Shown: positions 1,463 to 27,937 of the stretch, in pieces | Layout of the letters: each line of letters starts with the position of its first letter | Position numbering within the stretch: position 1 is the stretch's first letter | Assembly: GCA_900318955.1 (NCBI GenBank) | Contig: ONMJ01000013.1 | Coordinates: forward strand, 1 to 46,847 | Direction: 5' to 3' | DNA from: an uncultured Bacteroidales bacterium | Lineage (GTDB): Bacteria; Bacteroidota; Bacteroidia; Bacteroidales; UBA932 | Length of the DNA stretch: 46,847 bases | The notes under the pieces: generated by a model | The model's database searches: none | The model's input: the letters and a program-made list of their open reading frames with translations, nothing else | What the model was told of the DNA's origin: nothing | Position numbers and translations under genes: made by a program

Positions 1463-1494
1463 TTTGCATAAACGGGCCTTTTTACATATCTTTG
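1463..1494 (+). promoter_or_regulatory. Promoter of the peptide-lipoprotein-protease unit
   Basis: TTTG at 1463-1466, 20 nt, then TATCTTTG at 1487-1494, matching the Bacteroidota housekeeping consensus exactly. Transcription would begin near 1500, which excludes the upstream in-frame ATG at 1377 as the start of the small peptide and supports a start at 1515 or 1539. Confidence 0.7.
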
Positions 1495-1514: not shown

Positions 1515-1646
1515 ATGGATATTATTAAAAATTTTTACATGAAACCCGAGGTCAGAACTCTCCCTCTGACTGTCGATGTTTCATTTCTCCAGTCTTATTC
1601 GGGCGAAATTGAAGATGGAGAAGAAAATCCCTGGGGAGATTTATAG
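1515..1646 (+). CDS. Small acidic peptide of unknown function
   Basis: This encodes a 43-residue peptide if the ATG at 1515 is used, or 35 residues from the ATG at 1539 (starting MKPEVRTLPL). No signal peptide or membrane segment is visible. The tail is acidic and Gly-rich and ends EENPWGDL. The open frame extends back to 1377, but the promoter at 1463-1494 lies inside that extension, so I chose a start downstream of it. The stop is six bases before the lipoprotein ATG, so the two are almost certainly on one transcript. I do not recognise the family. From memory, short ORFs of this general look (charged or hydrophobic head, Gly/Asp/Glu-rich tail with Trp) are common ahead of Bacteroidales surface-protein genes. 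It could be a regulatory leader peptide, a small secreted or modified peptide, or a chaperone-like partner. Confidence 0.55.
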   Translation: MDIIKNFYMKPEVRTLPLTVDVSFLQSYSGEIEDGEENPWGDL

Positions 1647-1652
1647 GAGGGC

Positions 1653-3350
1653 ATGATGATGAGTATTAGAAAATCAATAATCATAATTGCTGCGGCCCTT
1701 TCCCTTACTGCCTGCGCGATAACTGTCAAGGAGCAGGATGCTCCTTCGACACTCAAAGTGACCTTTAACTCAGAGGTTATAGAATCCAGAACTTCTTTTG
1801 AGGAACCGGAAGGTACGATCTATCCCGTCCGCTGGACCGACAATGACAAGACTGTGCTTTTGTCTCTGAATAAGGCAGATGCTACTGATGCTCAGGTGGT
1901 TGTTGAAGAAGGCCGTAAGCGGGCTTGGTTTACCTCTGATGTGACTGTAGGGTCGACCACGGCTCCGTTTGTCTTCTATTCTGTCAGTCCGGCATCTGCC
2001 GCTACTGCTATGAATAAGACACATGGCGGATGGAGCGTCACTATCCCTTCGACTCAGACCCCTTCTGTTCTCTCTCCCGATGAGAGTGCCCAGATTCTCG
2101 TGGGTGCTTCCAATCCGCTGACTTCAATCCCAGAAAAGGTTTCTCTGTATTTTAAGCACCTTTCAGCTTATGGAAAGTTCTCATTGAAGAATCTTCCTTC
2201 TACAGTGACTTCTATTAGTTCTGTTGAACTGACGGCCGGTGCTCCCATAGCCGGAAACTGGTTTTACAACGTCGAAGAGCAGTCGATGGAGTCCAACGGA
2301 GCTTCTTCGACTATTACAATCAATACGACTTCCTTTGAGGATATCTGGTTCGCCTGCGCTCCTCAGGATCTAAGCGGAAAGACTCTGAAAGTCACAGTTT
2401 CGACTGATCTTGGCAAGTTCGCCCGCACAATAACTCTTCCCGAAGGCTCCGCCTTCAAACCAGGCAAGATTTCAACGTTCTCGGTGGATATGTCTAAATC
2501 CGAGCCTGTTGTTTTCAATAAAATCTACCGTCTGGTAACCTCCGTAAGTTCTCTTGAAAAAGGCGATAATGTGATTATCACCCAGGCTCCGAGCGATTAT
2601 GCGGCAGACGGCCCTCTTGCGGTTTCTACCTCAGCCGCAGCTCGATATATCAATCCGGAAGGGGTTACGGTAAGTGGTGACACACCATCGGAAATGGTAA
2701 TAGCCAACCCTTCGGAGAAAGTGCAGGTTTTCACCCTTGTCAGTGGTGAAAACGGCCTTTGGGCTTTTAAATCCGCCGATGGCTTTCTCAATTCAAATGG
2801 GGAGAAAAATGTCAATTACGTCGCTCTTCCATCTGAAAAGTCTTATTGGGGACTGACTATCAATGAGTCGGACGGAGAAGCTGTTTTGACTTCCAGCTAT
2901 GGATATTATCTAAGGTATAACAGCCAAAGCCCGCGTTTTACTACATACAGGGAAACCAGCAGTGTCAAGATCAATGTCGCCATCTATAAGGAATACATCG
3001 AATCCGTAGTTGTAACTGACGAAGATCCAATTCTTTCCGAGTCTGTCTATGGAGCTTATCTTACTTCCGGTAACAGGCTTTATTCAGCCGGTACCGATCA
3101 GATAAGCAATGAATTCGGCGAGACTGATGAGGATTTCATCATTATCCAGCCATCTTCGGAAACCGTAATGACCTTCGGAGGTATTCCTCAGGACGTGGCA
3201 AAGGGCAGCTCATTCAGCCTTTCCTTTACTGTCGTTACCGGTAAGGAAACAGTAATCAAAGCAGTCTATCCGGTTTCAGTAGTTCGCGAAGACGGTCCGA
3301 AGTTATGGCTTTCGGACGGTGCGGGTCATGGTTTCATTGTCAAAAAGTAA
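1653..3350 (+). CDS. Mfa/fimbrillin-like surface lipoprotein
   Basis: A 565-residue lipoprotein with a signal peptide and lipobox LTAC (Cys21). Residues of about 30-290 resemble the Mfa-like/fimbrillin-like adhesin fold: an early R-T-S-F segment, W-T-D-N-D-K-T, a KHLSAYGKF strand and a PGKISTF end. Residues of about 300-455 form a second module (YRLVTSVSSLEKGDNVIITQ ... YLRYNSQSPRFTTY) of a type seen in other Bacteroidales secreted proteins. A C-terminal part ends LWLSDGAGHGFIVKK. A GGAGG-like ribosome-binding site just precedes the start, where three ATG codons stand in a row. It lies six bases after the small peptide gene and six bases before the M6 protease, so the three form one unit. The role is probably surface display or adhesion, or binding of the protease or its target; this is inference. 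Confidence 0.75.
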   Translation: MMMSIRKSIIIIAAALSLTACAITVKEQDAPSTLKVTFNSEVIESRTSFEEPEGTIYPVRWTDNDKTVLLSLNKADATDAQVVVEEGRKRAWFTSDVTVGSTTAPFVFYSVSPASAATAMNKTHGGWSVTIPSTQTPSVLSPDESAQILVGASNPLTSIPEKVSLYFKHLSAYGKFSLKNLPSTVTSISSVELTAGAPIAGNWFYNVEEQSMESNGASSTITINTTSFEDIWFACAPQDLSGKTLKVTVSTDLGKFARTITLPEGSAFKPGKISTFSVDMSKSEPVVFNKIYRLVTSVSSLEKGDNVIITQAPSDYAADGPLAVSTSAAARYINPEGVTVSGDTPSEMVIANPSEKVQVFTLVSGENGLWAFKSADGFLNSNGEKNVNYVALPSEKSYWGLTINESDGEAVLTSSYGYYLRYNSQSPRFTTYRETSSVKINVAIYKEYIESVVVTDEDPILSESVYGAYLTSGNRLYSAGTDQISNEFGETDEDFIIIQPSSETVMTFGGIPQDVAKGSSFSLSFTVVTGKETVIKAVYPVSVVREDGPKLWLSDGAGHGFIVKK

Positions 3351-3356
3351 GCAGCT

Positions 3357-5195
3357 ATGAGAAAGATAATATATTATGCCATTGCACTTGTTGCTCTTGC
3401 AGCAGCGGCTGAGACGGCTCTTGCCATTCCTGCGAAAAGAGGCACATTCACATATACTCAGCCTGACGGATCCACCATCGTTCTCCAGAGGGTAGGAGAT
3501 GAGAGGATGCATGCAACCCTCGATGCTTCCGGTAATCCTATGGTAATGGATGAGAACGGCTTCTACGTCAGAGCTTCAGTTGCCACCCGCTCGGGGGATG
3601 CCCCTTCTCCCGTTGTAATGACTCATCTCGGAGCGAGGCGCAAAGTAGCACCCGCTACCGATATGACAATAGGCACCAGGTATATCCCTGTCCTACTTGT
3701 AGAATTCAGCGACAAGAAATTCAAAGTATCTGACCCTCAGGGCAAGTTCAACGACCTTCTCAATCAAGAGGGATACAGCTACAATGGAGCTACAGGCTCA
3801 GTCCATGATTTTTATTATGATAATTCTCATGGGCTTTTTGACCCGAAATTCGATGTTCAGCGCGTTGTTTCCCTCTCGAACAAAATGTCCCATTATGGAA
3901 GCAGCGACGAGGATGTTGTTCTTGCTATAATGGAGGCCAGCGACAGCCTTAGTAAAGATGGTATCGACTTCTCAAAGTATGATTCCAATTCAGACGGGGT
4001 CGTTGATATGCTCCTTATCTATTATGCCGGAAATAATGAGGCTGAAGGTGGTTCTTCCAGCACGATCTGGCCCCACCAGTGGGAAGTCTCCTCATATGAC
4101 GCTTATTACAATACTTCCTATTCCAAGAGAAAGTATAATGGAGTTACACTCGATAAGTATTTCTGCACATCGGAGCTCCAGTCCGGTGGAAGTCTTTGCG
4201 GCATCGGAACGACTTGCCATGAGTTTGGACATTCTCTCGGCCTTCCGGATTTCTATGACTCCAACTATGCTGATGACGAACTGCTTTCATCATGGCCTTC
4301 ATATTCCAGAGATACCCATTCTATGGATTCTTTCTCCACAATGGACGGCGGTTCGTATCTCAATAATGGCCGCACTCCTCCATATTTCACTACAGAGGAG
4401 AGGATTATGCTAGGGTGGATTGGCGAGGATGCAATAGAAGAGGTCAACTCAACCAGAACTGTGACTATTCCTTCTGTGTATGAAGGGAAGGCTTATAAGC
4501 TCTCCACAAGCGAGGAAGGGGAGTATTTCCTCTTTGAGTGCCGCGACGGAAGCGGGTGGGATGCTTATCTTCCTACCGGTTGCACGGTTACCCATATTGA
4601 TAAGACAAAGAATAGGACTCTCCAGTATCCGGAAGTCGTCCAGAACGGTTGGAATTCGAGTATCAACTATATCCCGGTCACCCCGTTCTTTCTTTGGGAT
4701 CAATGGGAGGTTTATAACGCTATAAATGCAATCAAGGGACATCCTTGCAGCTATTTGATTTACCCGTCTGACCCGTCAAATTATAACAAGTCGTCTTACA
4801 ACCTGAACGAATGGGTCTTCCCGGGTTCAGGAGTCAGCACCTATCGTCCGACAGATTGGAACGGAGTAGAGAATGACATCATCGCCGAGACCATCTCGTA
4901 TGCTGAGGGTATCGTGACAATCTCGTTCAGGGCACCGGAACCGGTTCTTACTCTCTACAATGAGATTGTTAATCCCAAAAACGGCAAGTATTCCCTTGGC
5001 GATGAATTCGTCTTTGAACTCGACAGGGCAACTCTTGACAGGGTCCCAGCAACTGTCTCTTGGTATTTCGATGATGAGCTCGTAACAGACTCATATAAAG
5101 TTCTTTCCGTCCCCGGGCTTCACACTGTTGAAGCAGTGCTCGGCCTCGAGAACGGAAAGACTAAAAAAGTTTCTCTCGAGATTACTGTCGAATAA
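3357..5195 (+). CDS. Secreted M6-family metalloprotease
   Basis: A 612-residue protein with a signal peptide of about 23 residues. The zinc site HEFGHSLGLPD (288-298) fits the M6 immune-inhibitor-A pattern HExxHxxGxxD. The N-terminal part starts IPAKRGTFTYTQPDGSTI, as in Bacteroidales M6 proteases, and IPVLLVEFSDKKF opens the catalytic domain near residue 110. Residues of about 535-612 look like an Ig/PKD-like beta domain. I see no clear type IX secretion C-terminal domain. M6 enzymes are extracellular endopeptidases acting on host or microbial proteins. It is third in the unit with the small peptide and the Mfa-like lipoprotein, and ends two bases from the convergent nifJ. Confidence 0.9.
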   Translation: MRKIIYYAIALVALAAAAETALAIPAKRGTFTYTQPDGSTIVLQRVGDERMHATLDASGNPMVMDENGFYVRASVATRSGDAPSPVVMTHLGARRKVAPATDMTIGTRYIPVLLVEFSDKKFKVSDPQGKFNDLLNQEGYSYNGATGSVHDFYYDNSHGLFDPKFDVQRVVSLSNKMSHYGSSDEDVVLAIMEASDSLSKDGIDFSKYDSNSDGVVDMLLIYYAGNNEAEGGSSSTIWPHQWEVSSYDAYYNTSYSKRKYNGVTLDKYFCTSELQSGGSLCGIGTTCHEFGHSLGLPDFYDSNYADDELLSSWPSYSRDTHSMDSFSTMDGGSYLNNGRTPPYFTTEERIMLGWIGEDAIEEVNSTRTVTIPSVYEGKAYKLSTSEEGEYFLFECRDGSGWDAYLPTGCTVTHIDKTKNRTLQYPEVVQNGWNSSINYIPVTPFFLWDQWEVYNAINAIKGHPCSYLIYPSDPSNYNKSSYNLNEWVFPGSGVSTYRPTDWNGVENDIIAETISYAEGIVTISFRAPEPVLTLYNEIVNPKNGKYSLGDEFVFELDRATLDRVPATVSWYFDDELVTDSYKVLSVPGLHTVEAVLGLENGKTKKVSLEITVE

Positions 5196-24435: not shown

Positions 24436-24918
24436 ATGGATAAACTGACGATAAATAACGATGAATTCTTCGCTTCTGTGCGTCAGATGCTTTCAGCCGG
24501 TCATGATGTTACCATCCCGGTCAAAGGATATAGCATGCTTCCGTTTATCAGGGGTGGGAAGGATCTTGTCGTCCTCCGCTCTCCGGGGGAGGTGAAAAAA
24601 GATGATATCGTCCTTTTCCATATAGGGCCGGAATTCGGCGGTCGTTATGTGATGCACCGCATTCTATCCCGCGATGGCAAGAAACTTGATATAATGGGCG
24701 ACGGCGTGCCGAAAAACCACGAATATGTGACTGTCGAGAGCGTTGTCGGAAAGGCTGTCAGCATTATCAGGGACGGGAAGCATCCGGTGGACCCGTATTC
24801 CGACAAAGAACTCCGTAAGGTCCATGCCTGGCAGCGCCTGTTGCCGCTGAGGAGGTACATCCTCTTTGCCTACAGGCACCTCCCGTGGAACAGGAAATGG
24901 TTGAAAGAAAATAAATAG
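24436..24918 (+). CDS. S26-type (Ser-His-Asp) signal-peptidase-like protein
   Basis: A 160-residue protein from the ATG at 24436; an in-frame ATG at 24406 lies upstream of the -7 box and is rejected. Ser33 lies in GYSMLPFI, the SMxP box of signal peptidases. His74 (YVMHRIL) takes the place of the bacterial general-base Lys, and Asp89 is in IMGDG. This is the archaeal/ER type triad (S26B, SipW-like). No N-terminal membrane anchor is seen; a basic hydrophobic C-terminus (RRYILFAYRHLPWNRKWLK) could associate with the membrane. It heads an operon with PqqD-like, nucleotidyltransferase and ABC exporter genes, so it may cleave an exported peptide. An S24 (LexA-like) relation is the alternative. Confidence 0.75.
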   Translation: MDKLTINNDEFFASVRQMLSAGHDVTIPVKGYSMLPFIRGGKDLVVLRSPGEVKKDDIVLFHIGPEFGGRYVMHRILSRDGKKLDIMGDGVPKNHEYVTVESVVGKAVSIIRDGKHPVDPYSDKELRKVHAWQRLLPLRRYILFAYRHLPWNRKWLKENK

Positions 24919-24926
24919 AACACAAT

Positions 24927-25193
24927 ATGAAAATCAAAGAAGGATTCATTCTGAGAACAATCTGCGGCCAGAGCGTAGTCTCCGCTGAAGGCTCCGCCAA
25001 TGTCAATTTCTCCAAGCTTGTGAGTCTCAATGAGACCGCAGCCTATCTTTTCGAGAATCTCGTTGGTAAGGAATTCGACGCCTCCGTGATGGCAGATCTT
25101 CTTACTGAATCTTACGAAGTCGACAGGGAAACAGCCCTTGCCGATTCGGAGAAACTGATTGAACAGTGGCAGGGTGCCGGTATAGTGGAATAA
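24927..25193 (+). CDS. PqqD-family peptide chaperone
   Basis: An 88-residue PqqD-like protein (KEGFILRTICGQSVVSAEG ... LVSLNETAAYLFENLVGKEF ... IEQWQGAGIVE). PqqD domains are RiPP recognition elements that bind a precursor's leader peptide and deliver it to the modifying enzyme. The N-E-T-A-A-Y-L-F segment is a hallmark. It begins eight bases after the peptidase stop and its end overlaps the nucleotidyltransferase reading frame by 28 bp. No radical SAM partner is encoded nearby. Family assignment is strong; the bound peptide is unknown. Confidence 0.85.
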   Translation: MKIKEGFILRTICGQSVVSAEGSANVNFSKLVSLNETAAYLFENLVGKEFDASVMADLLTESYEVDRETALADSEKLIEQWQGAGIVE

Positions 25194-26296
25194 CTGTCGA
25201 GAGACTTCTCGAACTCGTTCGTTCGGGGCTCCATGGAGGGGCTCCGAATCCCTCTCTTTTCACTGAAGACACCGATTGGGAGTCTTTATACAGGCTTGCC
25301 CATGACCAGACAGTTGTCTGTCTCGCTTCAGAAGGAATAGACCGCCTGCCTTCCTCCTCACTCCCGAAAGATGAGACCCGGCTCGATCCCTTTGTCGGCG
25401 ACACATTGATGACGGCAAGCCGTAATTCTCTTCTCAATAGCTTCATTCCCAAGTTGTTCCATCGTCTCGAAGGTACGGGAGCAGTGCTCGTGAAAGGGCA
25501 GTCATTAGCTCCTTTTTATCCTTCTCCTATGAAGCGGCAGCCGGGGGATATCGACATCCTCCTTATGGATGAAGGCTATCAGGAGGCCAAGAAGCTGCTT
25601 CTTCCAAAGGCATCGAAAGTAGAGGAAGAAGTGGTGGAGATACTCCATCAGGGCCTTTTTTACGGGTCGGTAGAAGTAGAGCTCCATGGAAGGATCAGTA
25701 CAGGGATGTCGAGAAAGCTCGACAAGAAGCTTCTGACAATCCAGAAACGGATGTTCTCAAGGCCTGAAAGAACCTTTGTGGAGATAGGAGGAGAGGATAT
25801 TCCCGTTCCTGACCAGAATTTCAACGCTCTCTATATTTTTATTCATTTTCTCCAGCATTACTGGTCGTCGGGACTCGGTCTGAGACAGATAGTGGACTGG
25901 GCGGTCTTTTTGAGAAAAAACAATACTCTAATCGACCTTCAGGCCCTTAAATCTGATCTCGAAGATCTCTCCCTGATGAGGCTGTGGCGCTCTTTCGGCT
26001 GCTTTGCCGTTGAGTATCTGGGGTTCAGCAAGAGGGATATTCCCTTTTATGACGGAAAATATTCGGGCAAGGGCGAGAAGATTCTTTCGTATCTTCTGAG
26101 CGTCGGGAATTTCGGGAAATTGGAGGGGAGAAAGGATAATTCCGACATGCCGGTGCTTTTAAGGAAAATGGATTCATTCAGAAGAAAGGTTGCGGGCGAC
26201 AGGCTTCGTCACTTCGGCATCTTTCCCGGGGAGTCTCTCCGCTTCTTCTTCGGGGCGTTTGGTTACGGTATCAAGAGATTGACTGACACTATTTAG
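25166..26296 (+). CDS. NTP_transf_5 family nucleotidyltransferase
   Basis: A 376-residue protein of the PF14907-type nucleotidyltransferase family. The substrate-loop signature is VLVKGQSLAPFY (108-119), followed by the metal-binding pair D128-x-D130 in QPGDIDILL. The start is uncertain: the frame opens with GTG at 25166, inside the PqqD gene, and no in-frame ATG is near. This family recurs in lasso-peptide and related clusters, where a member has been linked to adding groups to a phosphorylated peptide. The acceptor here is not known. It lies between the PqqD-like protein and the ABC exporter. Confidence 0.8.
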   Translation: MAGCRYSGITVERLLELVRSGLHGGAPNPSLFTEDTDWESLYRLAHDQTVVCLASEGIDRLPSSSLPKDETRLDPFVGDTLMTASRNSLLNSFIPKLFHRLEGTGAVLVKGQSLAPFYPSPMKRQPGDIDILLMDEGYQEAKKLLLPKASKVEEEVVEILHQGLFYGSVEVELHGRISTGMSRKLDKKLLTIQKRMFSRPERTFVEIGGEDIPVPDQNFNALYIFIHFLQHYWSSGLGLRQIVDWAVFLRKNNTLIDLQALKSDLEDLSLMRLWRSFGCFAVEYLGFSKRDIPFYDGKYSGKGEKILSYLLSVGNFGKLEGRKDNSDMPVLLRKMDSFRRKVAGDRLRHFGIFPGESLRFFFGAFGYGIKRLTDTI

Positions 26297-26305
26297 GGAT
26301 TGAAT

Positions 26306-27937
26306 ATGGCGGCAACTATCAAAGATTATTTCAGATGGCTATATTCTCACTCCAAAGGGGTGAGAAGGCGAATTGTCCTGAATATCGTCCTAAGCGGAGT
26401 GAGCATTCTTCTCAATCTCTTCTTTATCTATCTCTGTAAGAAGCTCGTCGATATTGCCACCGGGGTCTTCGACGGCAGCATCTGGCTCTATACTTCTGTT
26501 GTGCTGGTAGTTGTCCTTCTGAGGCTTGTAGTCAATGCTATGAATACCAGGCTTGAGAGCCTTACCAACTCAAAGATGAACTTCATCATCAGAAGCCGTA
26601 TCTACTCGGATATTCTCCAGGCGGAATGGTTCGGTAAGGATAAGTATCATTCAGGGGATACTCTCAACCGTCTTGAAACCGATGTCTCGACAGTGACAAA
26701 TGTCATCTGCTCCGACTCGCCTCAGATAGTCTCAACCTTGTTCCAGCTGGCAGCAGCCCTTGTTTTCATGTGCACCATGGACTGGCGTCTGGCTCTGATT
26801 CTGCTTATTATCACCCCTGTTTTCGTCGGTCTCAGCAAGGTCTTCTACAGCCGTCTCCGCGCAATGACAAGAACTATCCGCGATACCGAGAGCAAGGTCC
26901 AGAGCCACCTCCAGGAAAGTATCCAGCACCGGGTAGTCATCAGGTCCATGGAGAATGAAGATATGATGGAAAACCGGCTGGAGAACCTCCAGAACGAGGA
27001 GTATTCTCAGGTAAAGGAGAGGACAAAGCTCAATATTATAGCGCGGACAATCGTTTCGGCATCATTCCAGTTCGGATACATAGCCGCATTCCTTTGGGGA
27101 GTTTTCGGTATCATGCATGGAAACCTCACTTATGGTATCATGACCGCATTCCTCCAACTCGTCGGACAGATCCAGCGTCCTATGGTCAATCTGACCCGTC
27201 AGATTCCTGCATTTATCAATGCTACAGCTTCGATAGACCGTCTCATGGAGCTCGAGGAAGGGCCGAAGGAGGAGAGTGGAGAAAGCATAATGATGGATTC
27301 ACCTCTCGGGATCAAGGTGGAGAATCTTACTTTCCGTTATCCGGATGGTGAAAAAGATGTCCTGAAGGATCTCTCTTTCGATTTCCCGCCTCTTTCCAAG
27401 ACAGCTATAGTCGGTGAAACCGGAGTCGGTAAGAGTACTCTTATAAGGCTCATGCTCTCTCTCCTCAAGCCGACTTCCGGTACTGTGTCTTTGTATAATT
27501 CCAGTGAGTCAATGCAGGCTTCTCCTCTTACAAGGTGCAATATAGTCTATGTCCCTCAGGGAAATACGCTTTTCAGCGGTACGATCCGTCATAACCTGAT
27601 GATAGGAGACCCCGAGGCTGACGAAGAGAAGATGCTGTGGGCCCTGAAGGCCGCCCAGGCAGATTTTGTATTTGATCTTCCCGACGGGCTGGATACGGTC
27701 TGCGGCGAGAGAGGGTCTGGCTTGAGCGAAGGACAATCGCAAAGAATCGCCATTGCAAGAGGACTTCTCCGTCCCGGAAATATTCTTCTTTTCGACGAGT
27801 TCAGTTCTTCCCTGGACCCGGAGACAGAGGACAGGCTCATAAAAAATATCACCGAACTTGCTTCCAACAAGACGATGATATTCATTACCCATAGGGAAAG
27901 AATCGCAGAGTTCTGCGACCGCGAACTGAAACTCTAG
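26306..27937 (+). CDS. ABC exporter half-transporter (peptide/multidrug type)
   Basis: A 543-residue fused membrane and ATPase protein. The start is the ATG at 26306; a TTG six bases earlier is in frame. There are six predicted membrane helices over about residues 1-300. The ATPase has Walker A GETGVGKST near 370, signature LSEGQSQR, Walker B ILLFDEFSSSLD with the catalytic Glu kept, and the His switch in FITHRE. No N-terminal C39 peptidase domain is present, so any leader removal would need a separate enzyme such as the S26-type protein. It is the last gene of the operon. Its TAG stop sits in a CTAG shared with the stop of the convergent pdxA. Confidence 0.88.
   Translation: MAATIKDYFRWLYSHSKGVRRRIVLNIVLSGVSILLNLFFIYLCKKLVDIATGVFDGSIWLYTSVVLVVVLLRLVVNAMNTRLESLTNSKMNFIIRSRIYSDILQAEWFGKDKYHSGDTLNRLETDVSTVTNVICSDSPQIVSTLFQLAAALVFMCTMDWRLALILLIITPVFVGLSKVFYSRLRAMTRTIRDTESKVQSHLQESIQHRVVIRSMENEDMMENRLENLQNEEYSQVKERTKLNIIARTIVSASFQFGYIAAFLWGVFGIMHGNLTYGIMTAFLQLVGQIQRPMVNLTRQIPAFINATASIDRLMELEEGPKEESGESIMMDSPLGIKVENLTFRYPDGEKDVLKDLSFDFPPLSKTAIVGETGVGKSTLIRLMLSLLKPTSGTVSLYNSSESMQASPLTRCNIVYVPQGNTLFSGTIRHNLMIGDPEADEEKMLWALKAAQADFVFDLPDGLDTVCGERGSGLSEGQSQRIAIARGLLRPGNILLFDEFSSSLDPETEDRLIKNITELASNKTMIFITHRERIAEFCDRELKL

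Follow-up and report, generated by a model that had tools for sequence, protein, structure and literature searches.

A four-gene operon at positions 24436 to 27937 of contig ONMJ01000013.1 (assembly GCA_900318955.1), from an uncultured Bacteroidales bacterium, very probably encodes most of a pathway for ribosomally synthesized and posttranslationally modified peptides (RiPPs) resembling the pathway for linear polyphosphorylated peptides (LPPs). A single machine would serve, in trans, many dispersed precursors, nearly all of them encoded beside a fimbrillin-like lipoprotein. The whole 46,847-nucleotide stretch analysed is referred to as the window. We describe the parts of the system, its precursor family, the pairing of precursors with lipoproteins, and the co-occurrence of precursors and machinery. 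The LPPs are RiPPs of Bacillota published in May 2026 in Nature Communications (PMC13381572); statements about them refer throughout to passages of that report.

Results

All four operon genes were present on the forward strand and were of the kinds named in a first-pass annotation of the DNA. The first gene (24436 to 24918) encodes a 160-amino-acid (aa), LppS-like peptidase of the S24/S26 Ser-His-Asp type, which scored 23.8 bits against Pfam Peptidase_S24 (PF00717; cut-off, 23.3). It is followed by genes for an 88-aa, LppB-like RiPP recognition element (RRE) of the PqqD family (24927 to 25193; 49.0 bits against Pfam PqqD; cut-off, 23.4), a 376-aa, LppN-like NTP_transf_5 nucleotidyltransferase (25166 to 26296; 123.5 bits against PF14907; cut-off, 31.2), and a 545-aa, LppD-like ABC exporter of the MsbA type (26300 to 27937). 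The nucleotidyltransferase gene has a GTG start and overlaps the preceding PqqD gene by 28 nucleotides (nt). The Pfam scan of the exporter detected ABC_membrane and ABC_tran and no C39 domain, in agreement with the earlier reading. A divergent RecG gene flanks the operon on one side and convergent PdxA/RNase H genes on the other. No cyclase, radical SAM enzyme, or B2-type protease was detected among the 6 flanking genes scanned, a genome-wide search not having been made. The claim that these genes and a precursor gene are all absent in cis therefore held for the enzymes within those flanks and failed for the precursor, since a precursor open reading frame (ORF) lies in the window 23 kb upstream.

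The Ser-His-Asp assignment of the peptidase was borne out by the invariance of S33, H74, and D89 in 13/13 aligned homologues and by its nearest chains in the PDB, the SEC11 signal peptidases SEC11C and SEC11A (3.6e-6). Its top NCBIfam match was an archaeal signal peptidase model, at 28.9 bits and under the cut-off of 51.85. The PqqD protein was the only match to its family in its own genome, and its nearest solved relatives were lasso peptide B1 proteins, with TfuB1 the closest. Structures were compared with VIA-align. The predicted model, with three strands and three helices, best matched leader-bound lasso RREs, in keeping with the leader-binding role first proposed. The model indicates that the PqqD protein is a discrete RRE with a leader-binding fold.

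Homologues of the NTP_transf_5 protein (NTP5) were present in 44 of 119 genomes drawn from the organism's own family. Several were surrounded by the other operon genes and by a gene for a protein of ~300 residues, which keeps SGTGKST-, NDD-, and PWSG-type motifs and has weak kinship to HprK-related kinases and PEP carboxykinase. Profile searches of the 119 genomes detected this kinase (E at most 1e-20) in 48, PqqD in 50, and a strong peptidase match in 47. Not counted for the kinase were 8 genomes whose sole matches were weak ones (E 3e-4 to 1e-3) covering the P-loop region of 539- to 564-residue open frames, and for the peptidase, 7 genomes with weak matches only (E from 4e-13 up). PqqD and kinase were found together in 48 genomes, PqqD alone in 2, and neither in 69, and 47 of the 48 kinase-bearing genomes had a strong peptidase match. 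Strong kinase matches were single copy, the copy in genome G083 being in two pieces. In the window's own genome, the kinase gene (G000:C21:30026-30838) is unlinked to the operon and has intact SGTGKST, NDDNP, and GSPWSGK motifs. Judged from sequence, the HprK-like kinase is a fifth gene of the operon's system in related Bacteroidales.

At least 277 loci found via the kinase were confirmed, and the analysis covered 80 named loci among them; these 80 represent Prevotella, Segatella, Muribaculaceae, and other Bacteroidales, with 3 labelled Fibrobacter. Among the kinase clusters of the 80 named loci listed, 71 also held the peptidase, 65 PqqD, and 51 the ABC exporter, but just 16 held NTP5; the four-part set recurred at 44 of these loci. 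The conserved core is therefore kinase-peptidase-PqqD-exporter, and NTP5 is an optional part of the system. The own genome has two NTP5 matches. The second (L034:9173-10228; G000:C36) has no adjoining PqqD gene and lies on another contig in an apparent exopolysaccharide locus, recognised by resemblance; many NTP5 copies in relatives likewise lack the cassette and occur in loci of similar appearance. In a tree, the window NTP5 grouped with five copies that have no adjoining cassette. NTP5 was first considered as the hallmark of the system; its optional presence and the many copies that occur without the cassette led to that idea being dropped.

A blind comparison was made of 1045 short ORFs situated within 2.5 kb of cassette genes, mostly outside long genes. 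The two most widespread groups (six loci each) were characterised by Y-x-x-P, an E/V/I-rich stretch, a hydrophobic residue, Ser or Gly, and an acidic tail. ORF clusters 5, 6, and 9, of odd composition, were set aside, unchecked, as frame artefacts. A profile was built from 12 peptides and later widened, leaving out a weak match at L047 that lacks Y/F-x-x-P (E 0.31); two near-duplicates were omitted from the alignment (A5). Members are roughly 35 to 70 residues long. When 59 distinct peptides were anchored on [YF]xxP, 98% had F/I/L/V at +16 and 73% had Ser or Gly at +19; the motif at 0 and +3 was the script's chosen anchor and shows that all 59 possess one. Acidic residues made up 28% of the tails and basic residues 2%; a tail Cys occurred in 2/59 peptides. 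Nine members scanned against Pfam and NCBIfam gave no match at cut-off and two chance-level Pfam matches (E 0.14 and 0.17). Three precursors from loci labelled Fibrobacter and Prevotella (L178:4156-4290, L142:6378-6524, and L163:6259-6402) end in HLA or RLA, those of L178 and L142 lying 8 to 10 nt ahead of an NTP5 frame. Their termini suggest that they form a subfamily marked by a separate C-terminal signal.

The precursor candidate in the window (1515 to 1646, forward strand) has 43 aa (MDIIKNFYMKPEVRTLPLTVDVSFLQSYSGEIEDGEENPWGDL), with a YxxP leader and a putative cut/acceptor region, FLQSYS. It scored 14.4 bits (E 0.048; match at 1515 to 1643) with a profile not containing it, and a precursor at the own-genome kinase locus, also absent from the profile at that time, scored 19.4 bits. 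With both own-genome rows removed, the 11 precursors matched in this genome scored 12.1 to 29.3 bits (15.1 for that of the window), and the top score in 10 shuffled windows was 5.3 bits. The earlier picture of a stand-alone system with its substrate elsewhere was partly supported; it is amended by the precursor in the window and by the completing kinase elsewhere in the genome.

The window precursor is followed, 6 nt past its stop codon, by the gene for a fimbrillin (FimA/Mfa)-like lipoprotein (1653 to 3350, forward strand), for which the predicted model has a FimA/type V pilin fold. The third gene, after precursor and lipoprotein, encodes an M6-family (immune inhibitor A-like) metalloprotease (3357 to 5195, forward strand; PF05547, 2.8e-14). 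A lipoprotein gene lay directly 3' of the precursor at 10/11 own-genome loci, and the trio with the M6 metalloprotease recurred at 3/11 (window 3357-5195, L249:1917-3668, and L252:4679-7366); either the lipoprotein or the peptide may be a target of processing by the metalloprotease. Neighbours were examined for 61 precursor matches, which include two duplicates (L256 = L089 and L257 = L059). Precursors with a lipoprotein downstream end within ~50 nt of its gene or overlap its open frame. The paired lipoproteins have a lipobox and, by profile, a FimA-type adhesin fold, and their C-terminal domains are varied, including a nuclease and GLUG repeats. Fold and lipobox are shared with FimA/Mfa type V pilins and related adhesins, whereas the RiPP-type precursor gene ahead is a difference. 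Overall, the pairing suggests a surface role for the peptides. The first idea, that the fimbrillin-like lipoprotein was itself the substrate, was abandoned once short ORFs turned up ahead of its gene.

Precursors and machinery also co-occurred across genomes. Among the 119 family genomes, PqqD and peptides occurred together in 42; PqqD stood alone in 8 and peptides alone in 5 (1 to 2 matches each), and 64 had neither. In a draw of 393 genomes from the order, the kinase was present in 43, peptides in 29, and both in 24. Outside the own family, both were found in 21 genomes, the kinase only in 18, peptides only in 5, and neither in 343 (Fisher 1.3e-19, for genomes that are related to each other). 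Two of the five peptide-only genomes have PqqD; completeness is 65% for one of the remaining three and 89% for another.

Six loci (L261 to L266), whose hosts belong to five further families of the order, and which were selected for having both matches close together on one contig, carry a precursor in the same cluster as the machinery. The order is precursor-kinase-peptidase-PqqD-NTP5-ABC exporter in L261 and precursor-lipoprotein-kinase-peptidase-PqqD-NTP5-ABC exporter in L263; precursor and machinery are both present in L262, L264, L265, and L266. A seventh locus fetched alongside (L267) has PqqD, NTP5, ABC, and a fimbrillin-like frame and gave no precursor match.

Discussion

In LPP biosynthesis, an HprK-like kinase adds several phosphates to one core Ser, and an archaeal-type signal-peptidase-like enzyme (catalytic S29/H68/D93) needed the RRE to cleave the YxxP leader in vitro (PMC13381572). 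The LPP set includes an export pump, and deletion of the NTP transferase gave no detectable change (PMC13381572). YxxP is described in passages of a second report as a characterised RRE recognition motif (PMC12710340). The Bacteroidota system has in common with LPP an HprK-like kinase, a discrete leader-binding RRE, an archaeal-type, signal-peptidase-like Ser-His-Asp enzyme, an MsbA-like exporter, an NTP transferase, a YxxP leader, and the lack of an adjoining cyclase, here in the six flanking genes scanned. The window proteins and the unlinked kinase correspond one to one with the LPP set. LPPs were considered by their authors to be restricted to Bacillota. The present system differs in its Bacteroidota host, in machinery that lies apart from about a dozen precursors, in an unlinked kinase, and in the pairing of its precursors with FimA-like lipoproteins; words starting with "bacteroid" or "fimbr" do not occur in the main text of PMC13381572. 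The single-cluster arrangement of LPP genes was found in relatives such as L261 and L263 and not in the own genome, where kinase, operon, and precursors are apart. Compared with the LPP consensus YxxPxVLxHQxIxFETxxS, the precursors show YxxP and a later hydrophobic-x-x-Ser, with different spacing and middle residues. By analogy, the Bacteroidota system would work like the LPP pathway; it was not filed as a formal member, because clustering fails in the own genome and the leader consensus differs beyond YxxP.

Other known systems were more distant. Paeninodin-type lasso peptides share an HprK-like kinase, an NTP transferase, and an RRE (PMC13381572); here, the peptidase is of another kind and the scanned flanks hold no cyclase or B2 cysteine protease. 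HPr-rel-A (TIGR04352/TIGR04353) and SynChlorMet (ScmC/ScmD), going by NCBIfam family names, share an HprK-like kinase and a PqqD protein. Their NCBIfam cut-offs were reached by neither the window PqqD, nor 5 relatives' kinases, nor 3 relatives' PqqD proteins; one relative's kinase, for example, scored 23.4 against 200 bits.

The chemical steps, namely phosphorylation, leader cleavage, and export, are all proposed on the LPP model. From its family and its predicted model, the PqqD protein would bind precursors via the Y-x-x-P leader. As for LppK, the unlinked kinase would phosphorylate a Ser near the core start, the candidates being +19/+20 from the Tyr. As for LppS, the S26-type peptidase, aided by PqqD, would cut the leader just past the hydrophobic residue at +16. 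NTP_transf_5, if present, may elaborate the phosphate, and export of the acidic core into the periplasm would fall to the ABC protein. A single machine would in this way act in trans on about a dozen substrates. From the genomic pairing we hypothesise that each mature peptide acts together with the surface lipoprotein encoded directly after it. We propose tentatively, as a plausible idea somewhat short of probable, that each of about a dozen fimbrillin-like lipoproteins receives a different acidic peptide dedicated to it (as a cap, ligand, assembly switch, or covalent decoration) and that the RiPP system equips type V pili and adhesins rather than producing an antibiotic.

Several observations weigh against an LPP-like machine serving lipoprotein-paired precursors. 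Past YxxP the leader is different: the Bacillota consensus has Phe at +13, the present peptides a hydrophobic residue at +16. One own-genome precursor (C65) has no lipoprotein gene after it. The own-genome lipoprotein and kinase genes are separated by 98 nt that include a hairpin, and their co-transcription is therefore unsure. Covariation between peptide core and lipoprotein was not significant in the own genome (98/1000 permutations as high, 11 pairs); for 12 pairs from other genomes, and for all 23 pooled, no permutation of 1000 was as high, a result confounded by tandem duplication and kinship. The precursor profile was trained on peptides adjoining cassettes, some from the same family and order, and so favours cassette genomes. 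Despite this bias, no precursor match was obtained in 19 of the order's 43 kinase genomes (E at most 0.01) or in 6 of the family's 48 (E at most 0.1). Finally, only 16 of the 80 named loci listed and 16 of 57 family loci had a precursor no more than 7 kb from the cassette, so that separation of machinery and precursors is common.

The strongest competing explanation retains the machinery and makes the peptides bacteriocins or signals, with the next-gene lipoprotein as immunity protein or receptor. The tight precursor-lipoprotein units, the variable tails, and the varied C-terminal domains of the lipoproteins, a nuclease and GLUG repeats included, would fit such a role. We consider it unlikely, as a FimA-type adhesin fold is common to the lipoproteins (by profile and, for that of the window, also by model), about a dozen distinct pairs occur in one genome, and single-copy machinery in 48/119 family genomes seems less patchy than a weapon would be. 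The short ORFs could also be upstream regulatory peptides for lipoprotein translation, co-occurring with the cassette through shared ancestry, and their closeness to, or overlap with, a following lipoprotein frame is compatible with this. The conserved amino acid register, the strong co-occurrence outside the family, and precursors that stand directly before the kinase (L261), before NTP5 (L142 and L178), or without a lipoprotein make this account very improbable. We give equally little credence to a cassette acting on polysaccharide or another non-peptide substrate with NTP5 as the link to capsule loci. Cassette-free NTP5 copies in exopolysaccharide-looking loci and a polysaccharide export gene 1.6 kb downstream of the operon speak for it, whereas the PqqD protein is a leader binder by fold, precursors occur in cis at six loci, and NTP5 is the part most often missing. 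The poorest candidate, a decayed lasso peptide cluster that has lost its cyclase and B2 protease, would account for the lasso B1 relatives of PqqD and is opposed by the recurrence of the four-part set at 44 of the 80 named loci listed (which were not searched for a cyclase), the conserved catalytic residues, and the different kind of peptidase.

The dispersed precursors indicate that Bacteroidales of the gut and rumen have a large family of such peptides. Since machinery and precursors lie apart, RiPP mining that relies on gene clusters could readily overlook this family. Full-text literature searches, judged by titles, abstract openings, and passages, found no description of the Bacteroidota system. 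LPPs have no known role according to their authors (PMC13381572), and the pairing of precursors with fimbrillin-like lipoproteins is a testable functional lead.

Additional features of the window

A promoter-like site (TTTG-N20-TATCTTTG; 1463 to 1494, forward strand) ends 20 nt before the precursor ATG and resembles the Bacteroidota promoter consensus. A full match to this consensus was found at only 2/11 own-genome precursors, and the idea of a shared precursor promoter was dropped on that count. A polysaccharide export locus begins 1.6 kb past the operon (29572 onward) with a Poly_export/SLBB protein, the next gene being Wzc-like by eye. LPP clusters of Bacillota are said to occur in capsule loci too (PMC13381572). 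In one relative (L265:4123-10096), PqqD-NTP5-kinase is followed first by two genes that look Wza/Wzc-like by eye and then by the precursor-lipoprotein pair.

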